Part shown: in pieces, positions 523 to 4,486 of the stretch | Position numbering within the stretch: the first letter of the stretch is position 1 | How the letters are laid out: the number at the start of each line of letters is the position of its first letter | Assembly: GCA_905236165.1 (NCBI GenBank) | Contig: CAJOOC010000102.1 | Location: 1-43,091, forward strand | Direction of reading: 5' to 3' | Origin: an uncultured Prevotella sp. | Lineage (GTDB): Bacteria > Bacteroidota > Bacteroidia > Bacteroidales > Bacteroidaceae | Length of the DNA stretch: 43,091 nt | The notes under the pieces: model-generated | What the model saw: the letters and a program-made list of their open reading frames with translations, nothing else | Told to the model about the DNA's origin: nothing | Database searches by the model: none | Position numbers and translations under genes: made by a program

Positions 523-686
523 GTCTCGGCACGCGCCCTGAATGAAGAAATACCAGAAAAGCATGACAATGTTTCAATATTCGTCAGTTCGTTTGACTAT
601 CGCCGAAGGTCTTGCGCTCCAGTAGGTGCTCAGGCGCAAGCGGAGTCCTCCGTCTTGGGTATGAAGAAAAATGCCAGCACTTTTTC

Positions 687-717
687 TTGCATATCTCAAA
701 ACTTAATCGTACTTTTG
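687..717 (+). promoter_or_regulatory. Promoter of rhodanese gene, left copy of 40-bp inverted repeat
   Basis: A Bacteroidota-type promoter is visible: TTGC at 687-690, 19 nt, then TACTTTTG at 710-717, fitting TAnnTTTG. It lies 34 nt before the ATG of the rhodanese gene. The surrounding 40 bp (680-719) is repeated in inverted orientation at 1326-1365 with one mismatch, so the same promoter sequence points inward from both sides. Confidence 0.75.
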
Positions 718-751
718 CAGCAGAATTCTAAAAACTGAACGATTATAGCAG

Positions 752-1138
752 ATGAAAAGAGTGAAGATTGTTGCGTTGCTTCTGGCCCTCACAGGCATTA
801 CCACCGCCTGCGGGCAAAAGGGCTATGAAGATGCTGAGGTGGAGGAGTTTGCAAGACTTATGGAGGACTCTACGGTTATGGTGCTTGATGTAAGGACGCT
901 GGAAGAATACGGCGCGGGACACCTTAAGCGCGCCATAAATATAGACGTGAAGCAGGAGGGATTTGCTTCTACGGCAGAATTCATGCTGCCGAAGGAATGT
1001 ACCATTGCAGTCTATTGCCGCAGCGGACGACGCTCGGCCCACGCGGCAGAACTCCTTGCAGAGAAGGGGTATAAGGCCGTCAACCTGAAAGGAGGAATCC
1101 TATCATGGGAGAAGGCCGGCAAGGCGGTTGAACGGTGA
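752..1138 (+). CDS. Rhodanese-like lipoprotein
   Basis: A 128-aa single-domain rhodanese/sulfurtransferase-like protein. The N-terminus is a signal peptide ending in a probable lipobox (GITTAC, Cys20), so the protein is predicted to be lipid-anchored in the envelope. The middle holds VLDVRTLEEYGAGHL, the usual rhodanese strand and helix. The active-site loop is CRSGRRS with catalytic Cys at about residue 89, and the C-terminus has the GGILSW motif. The likely role is sulfane-sulfur transfer or thiol redox work outside the cytoplasm; the substrate is unknown. It has its own promoter. A palindromic element begins 10 nt after its stop and may act as its terminator. Confidence 0.85.
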   Translation: MKRVKIVALLLALTGITTACGQKGYEDAEVEEFARLMEDSTVMVLDVRTLEEYGAGHLKRAINIDVKQEGFASTAEFMLPKECTIAVYCRSGRRSAHAAELLAEKGYKAVNLKGGILSWEKAGKAVER

Positions 1139-1147
1139 TGATGGTGA

Positions 1148-1172
1148 TGTCTGCGATGGTATCGCAGACTCT
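1148..1172. repeat. Palindromic element, intergenic copy
   Basis: GTCTGCGAT-GGT-ATCGCAGAC is a perfect 9-bp inverted repeat with a 3-nt loop (1149-1169), with shared flanks T and TCT. A second copy differing only in the loop occurs at 2284-2308 inside the O-methyltransferase gene. Here it lies between the rhodanese stop and the end of tRNA-Gln, which are convergent. Confidence 0.85.
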
Positions 1173-1205
1173 TCAATAAAAGATAAGGGGCTGGTGATGA
1201 AGATG

Positions 1206-1276
1206 TTGTCGTACGCGGATTCGAACCACGACAAACAGAACCAAAACCTGTTGTGCTACCATTACACCATACGACA
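1206..1276 (-). tRNA. tRNA-Gln (UUG)
   Basis: On the minus strand the sequence folds as a tRNA. The acceptor TGTCGTA (1276-1270) pairs with TACGACA (1213-1207), and the D-stem is GTGT/GCAC. The anticodon stem is ACAGG/TCTGT with loop TTTTGGT, giving anticodon TTG, and the T-loop is TTCGAATC. The first pair is U-A, usual for glutamine tRNA. CCA is not encoded, so it must be added by the CCA-adding enzyme, a candidate gene for which is at 8360-9811. A matching promoter lies upstream at 1328-1358 on the same strand. Confidence 0.93.
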
Positions 1277-1327
1277 AGCAACCGTTTATGACTCTCGCTG
1301 CATAAAGTAAAAATGCGAAAGCGGGTG

Positions 1328-1358
1328 CAAAGGTACGATTAAGTTTTGAGATATGCAA
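1328..1358 (-). promoter_or_regulatory. Promoter of tRNA-Gln, right copy of inverted repeat
   Basis: Read on the minus strand this is TTGC, 19 nt, then TACCTTTG (complement CAAAGGTA at 1328-1335), a strong match to the Bacteroidota promoter. It lies about 50 nt upstream of the tRNA 5' end. The 40 bp at 1326-1365 are the inverted copy of 680-719. Confidence 0.75.
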
Positions 1359-1381
1359 GAAAAAGACAAAGTTTTTTTAGG

Positions 1382-1801
1382 ATGAAGATATTAATTATGA
1401 ATGGCCCTAACCTGAACCTGCTTGGTGTCAGGGAACCGGGTATCTATGGTAACAGTTCGTTTGAGAGTTACCTCCCATCATTGCGGGAGCGCTATCCTGA
1501 CATGGAATTGGAATATTTCCAGAGCAATGTGGAAGGTGAGATGATCAATAAGCTGCAGGAGGTAGGTTTCACTTATGATGGTGTGGTGCTGAATGCCGGT
1601 GCCTATACCCACACGAGTATCGCTCTCCATGACTGCATTCGCTCGCTGCGCTGCCCCGTGGTGGAGGTACATATAAGTAATGTACACACACGCGAGGATT
1701 TCCGCCACCACTCATATCTCTCGCCAGCATGCAAAGGCGTGATATGCGGATTCGGCCTGGACTCTTACCGCCTCGCTATTGAAGCGCTCATTTGCAAGTG
1801 A
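1382..1801 (+). CDS. aroQ: 3-dehydroquinate dehydratase, type II
   Basis: A 139-aa type II dehydroquinase, the third step of the shikimate pathway (3-dehydroquinate to 3-dehydroshikimate), cytoplasmic and usually a dodecamer. Family motifs are clear: NGPNLNLLG at the start, REPGIYG with the catalytic Tyr, NAGAYTHTSIAL, VEVHISN and CGFGLDSY. The start at 1382 is preferred over the track start at 1346, because the family begins MKILIMNGPN and the upstream codons lie inside the inverted promoter repeat. The final Lys codon and TGA stop coincide with the beginning of a dispersed AAGTGAAGAGTGAA repeat. Confidence 0.95.
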   Translation: MKILIMNGPNLNLLGVREPGIYGNSSFESYLPSLRERYPDMELEYFQSNVEGEMINKLQEVGFTYDGVVLNAGAYTHTSIALHDCIRSLRCPVVEVHISNVHTREDFRHHSYLSPACKGVICGFGLDSYRLAIEALICK

Positions 1802-1875
1802 AGAGTGAAGAGTGAGGTGTGAAGTATCAGCTATGCCGCCCCCTCTCCTTGGGAGAGGGTTGGGGTGAGGTTTGT
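1796..1875 (+). repeat. Composite intergenic repeat (GTGAAGAG plus CTCTCC/GGAGAGG modules)
   Basis: The tract starts at the aroQ stop (AAGTGAAGAGTGAAGAGTG), passes through TATCAGCTATGCCG, and ends in the inverted-repeat module CCCTCTCCTTGGGAGAGGG followed by TTGGGGTGAGG. The same module order is seen after tyrS (38372 onward), and in part after yidD (36981) and after the permease gene (28904-28985). The second half overlaps the 3' end of the O-methyltransferase gene on the minus strand and encodes its last residues. Confidence 0.75.
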
Positions 1876-2631
1876 CCTGATTATCGTCAGTCCGTCGCGC
1901 AGAGGCAGAAGAACTTTCGACACACGAGCATCGTTGGCTATGTAGTCGTTGAAGTTGCGTATGCCCTTTGTCTGCGGGTCGGACGAATAGCCGGGGTCGG
2001 TGACGTGTCCATCCCACAACGTATTGTCGGCCATGATGAATGCCCCCGGGCTCATCAGCGGCAGCAACGTCTCATAGGTCTCGATGTATGTGCGTTTGTC
2101 ACCATCGAGGAAAGCCATATCGAAGGTGATATTCTCCGTTTGTGCTATGCGCGGTGCCTCTGTTATTGCATCGCCAATGATGAATGTCACCAGGTCGGCC
2201 CACGGGGACCCTTCTATCCAACGACGTGTGAAGGGTTCCTGCTCATCGTTTATCTCGAAAGTCCAAAGATGGGGGGGATTGGGTGTCTGCGATGATATCG
2301 CAGACTCTCCGACGGGCTCATTGATGAAAGAAGATTGAGAGCCTGCATTCAGTAGTGAGGCCAAGCCTTCGGCCATGCACAAAGCGGAATAGCCTGAGAA
2401 GGTGCCTACCTCTATGATGTTACGCGGGCGTATCATCTGAACGAGCATCTTTAGCAGGCGTCCCTGCAGATGTCCGCTTGCCATGCGTCCATGCAACATC
2501 TCTATGTTTGTGGCCCTCCACAGCCGATGCAGATAGTCGGGCTCGGCGTCGCTATGTGAGAGAACATAGTCGTCGAGCAATGCCTCGCCGCTGAGCGTAG
2601 TATGGTTGGGATTCTGAGTATGGCTCTTCAT
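1831..2631 (-). CDS. SAM-dependent O-methyltransferase, caffeoyl-CoA OMT family
   Basis: A methyltransferase of about 266 aa of the class I metal-dependent O-methyltransferase family. The SAM-binding region IIEVGTFSGYSALCMAEGL, the acidic strand FEINDEQ, the metal/SAM motif MAFLDGDK and IMADNTLWDG are all present; the substrate is unknown. MKSHTQ at 2631 is preferred over 2661, because it falls 10 nt after the mrdA stop. Two oddities stand out. About 25 extra residues sit between the first SAM motif and FEIND, in the stretch that contains ESAISSQTP, encoded by a palindromic repeat also found at 1149. The last residues, NLTPTLSQGEG, are encoded by a dispersed repeat, so the ancestral protein probably ended near LTIIR. 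In related genomes rodA usually follows mrdA here; it is absent. Confidence 0.85.
   Translation of the reverse strand: MKSHTQNPNHTTLSGEALLDDYVLSHSDAEPDYLHRLWRATNIEMLHGRMASGHLQGRLLKMLVQMIRPRNIIEVGTFSGYSALCMAEGLASLLNAGSQSSFINEPVGESAISSQTPNPPHLWTFEINDEQEPFTRRWIEGSPWADLVTFIIGDAITEAPRIAQTENITFDMAFLDGDKRTYIETYETLLPLMSPGAFIMADNTLWDGHVTDPGYSSDPQTKGIRNFNDYIANDARVSKVLLPLRDGLTIIRTNLTPTLSQGEGAA
2284..2308. repeat. Palindromic element inside a coding sequence
   Basis: GTCTGCGAT-GAT-ATCGCAGAC (2285-2305) is a perfect 9-bp palindrome, matching the intergenic copy at 1149-1169 except in one loop base. It is in frame within the O-methyltransferase gene and encodes ESAISSQT in a region where the family normally has a short loop. 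Confidence 0.85.
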
Positions 2632-2641
2632 GAAATATTCC

Positions 2642-4486
2642 TTATCTGTTTCTTGACCCATAGGCTATGCGCCGATGTTGGAAGTCGGAGGCACGTTTCT
2701 CTGAGCTTGCCGACAGTTTCCCCGTCAGATACTTCTCCATTATGAGTCCTCCGATAGGCACACCGTAGTCGGCTCCGAAACCGCCGTTCTCCACATAGAC
2801 AGCAACGGCTATCTTGGGGTCGTTCATCGGTGCAAAGCCCATGAATACGGAGTGGTCCTGTCCACGGTTCTGGGCCGTTCCGGTCTTGCCGCACACCTCA
2901 AACGGCATACTGCCGAGAGCCTTACATGTGCCACCAAGGACGGAGCTTCGCATACCTGCCACAACGAGGTCATAGGCCTTTGCCGAAGCCTTGGTGTAGC
3001 GTTTGTTTGTATAAAGGGTGTCAAGAGGCTCGCCTTGAACGCTCTTCACCACATGCGGCGTATAGAAATACCCACGGTTGGCGATGGTAGCTCCGAGGTT
3101 GGCTATCTGCAATGGTGTGAGGTTCACCTCACCCTGACCAATGGAGATGGAGATGATGGTGAGGCCGTTCCACGACCCTTTGTAGGCATTGTCGTAATAG
3201 GTGCCATTGGGTATGAGGCCTCGTTTCTCGCCTGGCAGGTCGATGCCCAGCCTATAGCCGAATCCCATGCTCACCATATAGTCGCGCCATGTGTTCATGG
3301 CATTAAGCGGCTTACCGTATTTCTTGCGGTTACCTATCATATAGTACAGTCCCCAGCAGAAGTATCCGTTGCACGATGTGGAGAGAGCCCCTACGAGTGC
3401 TATCGGCGAGGAGTGACCGTGACAACCCACATGCAATCCTTTGTAAGAGAAGCCATGATGGCACGGGAAGGCTGTGGTAGGGCTGAGAATTCCCTCGGTG
3501 ATGAATGTGAGTGCCTGTGATGTCTTGAAGGTAGAGCCCGGGGGATACTGTCCCATGATGCTTCGGTTCAGCAGCGGTTTCCACACATCCATCTCCAGCG
3601 CATGATGACTCTTGCCGCGCTTGCGGCCTGTCATGAGACGCGGGTCGTATGACGGCGATGACACCATGCAAAGCACCTCCCCCGTCTTAGGGTCTAAAGC
3701 CACGATACTGCCTATCTTACCTTCCATGAGACGCTCTCCAAGAGCCTGCAGCTCGATGTCGATGCCGAGGGTGAGGTTCTTGCCTGCCACGGGCTTACGG
3801 TCGAACTTACCGTTCTGATAGCGCCCCTGCACCCTGCCTCTGGCATCACGCAGCAACACCTGCATGCCTTTCTCGCCACGCAGCTGCTTCTCATAGGAGC
3901 GCTCCACGCCAAGCTTTCCTATATAGTCACCCCGCTGATAATACTCGTCGGCATCGATGTCACGCTGAGACACCTCAGCGATGTCGCCAAGCACATGGGC
4001 TGCATAGGGATACTGATACTGGCGAAGGGTGCGTCGCTGTATGGAGAATCCAGCGAAACGATAAAGCTTCTCACGGAAGATGGCAAAATCTTTCTCATCA
4101 AGCTGCGTAAGAAACACCTGTTGTACGAATCGCGAATAGCCCGGATTCTTGGATCTATCCTTGATATCGGCCATGCGTTTGATGAAGTATTCCTTGGTAA
4201 TGCCAAGGGTATTGCAGAAGGCCAGCGTGTCAAGATGTTCGCCCACCTCGTTCATCACTACCATAACATCATAGGAGGGCTGGTTATACACCAGCAGTTT
4301 CCCGTTACGATCGTAGATTACGCCACGGGCAGGATAATCTATTTTCTTCAGAAAGGCATTCGAGTCGGCACTCTTACGGTAGTCTTCGCTCATCACCTGA
4401 AGAGCGAAAAGGCGGAGGATGTAGACGATAACGATAATCAGTGCTGCTCCCGCTATGACGTATTTACGGTAAGAGAAGTCGGGCAC
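2642..4486 (-). CDS. mrdA: Penicillin-binding protein 2, elongation transpeptidase
   Basis: A 614-aa class B penicillin-binding protein that crosslinks peptidoglycan in the elongasome. One N-terminal membrane segment (about residues 10-30) is followed by the PBP dimerisation region with YPARGVIYDRNG. The transpeptidase domain has the active-site serine in GSTFK, the second motif as SCN (LSTSCNGYF) and the third as KTG (CGKTGTAQN). It starts 2 nt before the mreD stop, read on the minus strand, consistent with one mreBCD-mrdA transcript. The partner SEDS glycosyltransferase RodA is not encoded next to it, which is unusual for Bacteroidales, where rodA commonly follows. Confidence 0.96.
   Translation of the reverse strand: MPDFSYRKYVIAGAALIIVIVYILRLFALQVMSEDYRKSADSNAFLKKIDYPARGVIYDRNGKLLVYNQPSYDVMVVMNEVGEHLDTLAFCNTLGITKEYFIKRMADIKDRSKNPGYSRFVQQVFLTQLDEKDFAIFREKLYRFAGFSIQRRTLRQYQYPYAAHVLGDIAEVSQRDIDADEYYQRGDYIGKLGVERSYEKQLRGEKGMQVLLRDARGRVQGRYQNGKFDRKPVAGKNLTLGIDIELQALGERLMEGKIGSIVALDPKTGEVLCMVSSPSYDPRLMTGRKRGKSHHALEMDVWKPLLNRSIMGQYPPGSTFKTSQALTFITEGILSPTTAFPCHHGFSYKGLHVGCHGHSSPIALVGALSTSCNGYFCWGLYYMIGNRKKYGKPLNAMNTWRDYMVSMGFGYRLGIDLPGEKRGLIPNGTYYDNAYKGSWNGLTIISISIGQGEVNLTPLQIANLGATIANRGYFYTPHVVKSVQGEPLDTLYTNKRYTKASAKAYDLVVAGMRSSVLGGTCKALGSMPFEVCGKTGTAQNRGQDHSVFMGFAPMNDPKIAVAVYVENGGFGADYGVPIGGLIMEKYLTGKLSASSEKRASDFQHRRIAYGSRNR

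Follow-up and report, generated by a model that had tools for sequence, protein, structure and literature searches.

The window, that is, the whole 43,091-nt stretch of DNA that was analysed, belongs to a draft genome of an uncultured Prevotella sp. (G000; 2.5 Mb in 171 contigs, 83% complete). Close to its start, a rhodanese gene and a tRNA-Gln gene face each other next to aroQ, and a repeat search across the window recovered an inverted repeat around the two, with arms at 680-728 and 1317-1365 (49 nt, 90% complementary). The locus comprises the following features:

642..671, plus strand: degenerate mirrored 'B' arm 5' of the left promoter copy, GGAGTCCTCCGTCTTGGGTATGAAGAAAAA, also present upstream of many other copies
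680..719, plus strand: left promoter copy, with the -33 element TTGC at 687-690 and the -7 element TACTTTTG at 710-717, facing the rhodanese gene
720..751, plus strand: rhodanese leader, mostly common to a copy on contig C138, GCAGAATTCTAAAA..CGATTAT.GCA
752..1138, plus strand: single-domain rhodanese gene, 128 aa (PF00581, 7e-19)
1205..1276, minus strand: tRNA-Gln (TTG)
1326..1365, minus strand: right promoter copy, with the -33 element TTGC at 1358-1355 and the -7 element TACCTTTG at 1335-1328, facing tRNA-Gln
1382..1801, plus strand: aroQ, type II dehydroquinase (PF01220), a neighbour that neither copy drives as oriented

The inner 40 nt of the arms, TACTTTTGC on the left and TACCTTTGC on the right, differ at a single base (39/40), which confirms the inverted copies at 680-719 and 1326-1365 of the original prediction. 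The similarity fades out across the 49 nt, and the 26-nt core TTGCATATCTCAAAACTTAATCGTAC is found exactly at two places in the window, compared with 0.00 expected by chance. The arms are spaced 606 nt apart and, as to the question of an assembly artefact, the 40-bp repeat sits inside a 43-kb contig. Both copies fit the Bacteroidales promoter consensus (-33 TTTG / -7 TANNTTTGY, as quoted in PMC8748976) and face inward, with the rhodanese start 33 nt past the left core and the tRNA-Gln start approximately 50 nt past the right core. Position and consensus thus also favour reading either copy as a promoter directed at the gene in front of it. The right copy does not face aroQ, which begins 17 bp beyond it; the stretch in between (1366-1381) leaves only about 17 bp before the aroQ start codon and holds no promoter that faces this gene.

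Other repeats are found in the same region. A 21-nt REP-like palindrome, GTCTGCGATGNTATCGCAGAC, occurs just past the rhodanese stop (1149-1169) and again within an O-methyltransferase ORF (2285-2305; ORF at 1831-2661, minus strand). It recurs dozens of times across the genome (87 matches over both strands at up to 2 mismatches, control 0), several of which carry symmetric changes in both halves. Further upstream, a 26-nt inverted repeat, CAGGGACGTGGGCGTCTCGCCCGCGA (427-452 and 497-522, 96% complementary, 44 nt apart), with a similar fragment nearby at 347-364, is probably another intergenic repeat.

Dispersed copies and their distribution

The promoter is not confined to the window. At up to 3 mismatches, TCTTGCATATCTCAAAACTTAATCGTACNTTTGCA has at least 24 matches in G000, with none for the reversed-pattern control, and identical cores are present on other contigs. 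Judged by its sequence, the 34-nt core, TCTTGCATATCTCAAAACTTAATCGTA[A/C]CTTTGC, is a complete putative promoter; its median distance from the start codon is 43.5, 46 and 28 nt in three genomes. The genes behind the copies in G000 belong to unrelated Pfam families, including L19, Bax1-I, DUF4369, AlaRS, UPF0227, GH3, PepSY-like, NIF3, YebC, DUF4199, pectate lyase, Ino1, TonB plug and HflX-type GTPase. Rhodanese and tRNA-Gln hence join a list of family-bearing genes to which rplS, alaS, yebC and hflX also belong. At the TonB-plug gene (L046, contig C25), the stretch between the promoter and the gene resembles a cobalamin riboswitch by eye.

Promoter families were sought by pattern and in sampled stretches. 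In a sample of the genus, 8 of 398 genomes match the family pattern, with 59 copies in G375 and 36 in G186, two related metagenome-assembled genomes (MAGs). A looser pattern revealed a second carrier clade (G114, G209, G272 and G125) with 26-44 copies and a consensus of its own, TTGCATTTCTCATAACTTAATCG, and nearly all other genomes of the genus have 0-4 copies. In a tree of alaS and aroQ, G000 groups with G186 and G375, and the second carrier clade stands apart; G008 and G001 fall into the lineage of the former three, with the family absent or nearly so. An exact scan of public species genomes returned matches only in MAGs labelled Prevotella, Prevotellaceae or Bacteroidaceae, and where the title gives a source, it is the stomach of sheep or yak. 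Every named carrier is a MAG. Taken together, the 40-bp sequence probably belongs to a promoter family that is dispersed and lineage-specific, carried by a clade of ruminant Prevotella.

The carriers also differ from the window in the surroundings of aroQ. In G375 and G186, unlike in G000, this gene is faced by the same promoter family. The junction of tRNA-Gln and aroQ was found in the G000 MAG only and may reflect either a genuine rearrangement or a join made in assembly.

The inverted pair and the source of the rhodanese promoter

The original prediction had proposed that the 0.6-kb segment could invert by recombination between the two promoters, with rhodanese and tRNA-Gln swapping places and each always being driven. 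The inverted repeat is real, and its length would permit homologous recombination now and then; inverted repeats that flank a segment are a feature of invertible promoters. In Bacteroidales, these consist of a promoter between inverted repeats beside an invertase gene (PMC8748976). Inverted repeats and a promoter of the -33/-7 type are common to both, but in the window it is the repeats that are promoters, and an invertase was not seen. Moreover, copies of the repeat exist beyond this locus (24 in the genome, 22 of them at other sites), the 24 window ORFs scanned with Pfam include no recombinase or invertase, and both genes would keep the same promoter after an inversion, so that no switch is evident. 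A search in relatives for rhodanese, tRNA-Gln and aroQ in a conserved or flipped order gave no such case; in none of the relatives examined do the three genes lie next to each other. The left copy is lacking in these relatives, an observation that the original prediction had itself named as speaking against it. A locus-specific inversion was thus rejected as unsupported, and an invertible segment must be considered very unlikely.

The best reading is instead that the inverted pair is incidental and without a special function of its own: the copies form an inverted repeat because the two neighbouring genes face each other. Two of about 20 independent loci lie within 700 bp of each other, where random placement predicts approximately 0.1 such pairs and 0.03 inward-facing ones. 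This appears to be a mild coincidence, lessened by the confinement of the promoters to intergenic DNA. Two identical inverted promoters close together therefore need not be an invertible switch.

A related proposal, that a tRNA promoter was captured by the rhodanese gene, here via a local inverted duplication of the tRNA-Gln promoter, could draw on the proximity of the arms and their 39/40 identity, but the flanks contradict it. The closest match in the genome to the rhodanese promoter and its leader is the copy on contig C138 (85% over 85 nt, E 3e-19), which takes in about 35 nt of leader and the same -7 element and is followed by an unrelated 41-aa frame. The tRNA-Gln copy is in turn closest to the rplS copy, and identical cores lie on other contigs. 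Since the rhodanese copy is nearer to the C138 copy than to that of tRNA-Gln, it should not derive from its neighbour. Capture of the tRNA promoter was accordingly ruled out by flank similarity, and a local duplication is extremely improbable.

The match between rhodanese and C138 is the one clear case in G000 of copying that extends beyond the promoter motif. Across species, promoters of an ordinary and different kind precede the orthologues of the window genes (in G008, G001, G272, G114 and others), and the tRNA-Gln orthologues examined in relatives do not carry the family promoter. By eye, the first leader bases past TTTGCA of tRNA-Gln in G021 (L002) resemble those in G000, with a different promoter spacer, as if the promoter alone had been exchanged. 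Tandem number varies at orthologous sites as well, for example, one in G186 (L101) and three in G375 (L114). In G186, family copies at four loci (L055, L185, L189 and L190) share the leader AGGAGG.GACGTG..CACGTC, possibly a common leader hairpin that was copied along with the promoter.

Mirrored arms and tandem units

About half of the copies possess a diverged reverse-complement arm upstream (..GTCGAAGGTACTCCGTCTTGGATATGCAAGAAAAAA..), with which the promoter forms a hairpin-forming arm pair; of the two window copies, the left has this arm in degenerate form only and the right is without it. Promoters and arms also occur as tandem promoter-arm-promoter units, mostly 82-88 bp and in some cases 123-152 bp apart. 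One tandem copy (L033) folds to a strong hairpin as single-stranded DNA (z = -4.5), and the window copies gave no strong hairpin in the same fold test. A search of the sister clade for the mirrored arm yielded one case only.

Sequence variants in arm and promoter are linked more strongly than under within-genome permutation: 452/504 were observed for the -33 arm, versus 432 +/- 3.6 in the permutations, and 320 for the -7 arm, versus 307 +/- 3.3. Compensatory evolution of the two arms was considered on these grounds, yet the linkage, significant as it is, could also be explained by common descent of whole units rather than compensatory change, and we do not claim the former.

When -33/-7 windows from the sampled stretches were clustered de novo, G008 yielded another dispersed promoter, TTTTGTTCTGCNCTCGTTTTTTNGTAACTTTGC, unlike the first. 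This second family, TTTTGTTCTGCTCTCG..TTTTCGTAACTTTGC, is represented genome-wide by 14 copies in G008 (e.g. L240:13058), five in G000 (contigs C8, C15, C61, C107 and C119) and one in G001, and one of its copies shows the same tandem-mirror layout. Within the 400 kb sampled of G016, no comparable promoter family was found.

Known systems and rival readings

Matus-Garcia, Nijveen and van Passel (2012, NAR 40:10032) reportedly described 'mobile promoters', or promoter propagation in prokaryotes. As in that case, near-identical promoters stand here before non-homologous genes of one genome with a lineage-specific copy number, copying reaches beyond the motif, and promoters are present or absent at orthologous genes of relatives. 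The present family is unlike mobile promoters in the mirrored arm and 82-88-bp tandem units of many copies, in having reached housekeeping genes and a tRNA, and in the different family that a related species carries, one copy of which is laid out likewise. The main finding is, in short, a lineage-specific dispersed promoter family, probably of the kind known as 'mobile promoters', with an unusual mirrored tandem architecture. Literature searches returned no paper with the phrase 'putative mobile promoters' and none that combined 'Prevotella' with 'mobile promoters'.

Most likely, the family represents promoters of this propagated kind that are copied between sites. The promoter, often together with its mirrored arm as a unit of about 87 bp, would be copied to new sites, with tandem duplication and copying proceeding through recombination or another activity. 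Older promoters would thereby be replaced, and the gene's own leader may stay in place. At the window locus, two neighbouring genes would each have received a family copy. Because neither a transposase nor a target-site duplication nor an excision product was found for the family, we infer this movement from comparison only.

Alternatively, the copies could form a regulon, in which the whole 34-nt core is recognised by a global regulator or special sigma factor, and point mutations have brought unrelated promoters to this sequence by convergence. In favour of this, conservation in much of the spacer equals that of the -7 box, a looser related consensus recurs through the genus, and many housekeeping functions are found among the downstream genes. 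Convergence would, however, leave unexplained the leader shared by rhodanese and C138 as well as the mirrored arm and the 87-bp tandem units, and the family is nearly absent from G001 and G008 although these belong to the same lineage. The gene sets may point in the same direction: G186 and G375 have about 20 downstream genes in common, but of the 24 downstream ORFs in G000 just three are shared with G375 and two with G186. A regulon as the source of the family hence seems unlikely. Conceivably, the uniform spacer reflects selection for a factor-binding site, and some copies may be convergent, given the looser consensus in promoters of the genus at large.

A narrower form of the copying reading, which does not exclude it, sees the family as an element of the REPIN or MITE type whose functional arm is the promoter and which a transposase moves in trans. 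Short inverted-repeat elements of the MITE type are said to occur in Porphyromonas gingivalis, likewise a member of the Bacteroidota; in contrast to these, neither a related transposase nor a target duplication was found here. REPINs with their RAYT transposases (PMC8049555) resemble the family in their paired inverted hairpin arms, many dispersed copies and local tandem amplification, and the stable hairpin of L033 fits such an element. Unlike in REPINs, one arm is a promoter located just before genes, and the mirrored arm is missing in about half of the copies. Flanks read by eye contained no recognisable target-site duplication. The Y1/RAYT transposase (PF01797) was not found in the drafts of G375 and G186, which are richest in copies, and G000 has one partial match; PF01797 does not track the promoter family, and RAYT/REPIN was rejected on this basis. 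We therefore regard a transposase-driven element of this type as improbable.

For the family as a set of promoters copied between sites, a wider proposal can be put forward tentatively, at rather less than even chances. This clade of ruminant Prevotella may keep exchanging gene promoters, those of housekeeping genes among them, for copies of a few lineage-specific, mirrored and tandemly duplicating cassettes, by a process that corresponds to no known transposase system, with species amplifying different cassettes of the same layout. If the promoters of core genes are regularly overwritten in this manner, regulation in these gut bacteria could be rewired without a change in the genes themselves, and many genes would come to depend on one promoter, rising or falling together. 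Such promoter families lend themselves to counting and to mapping onto a simple phylogeny, which makes the spread of promoters testable.
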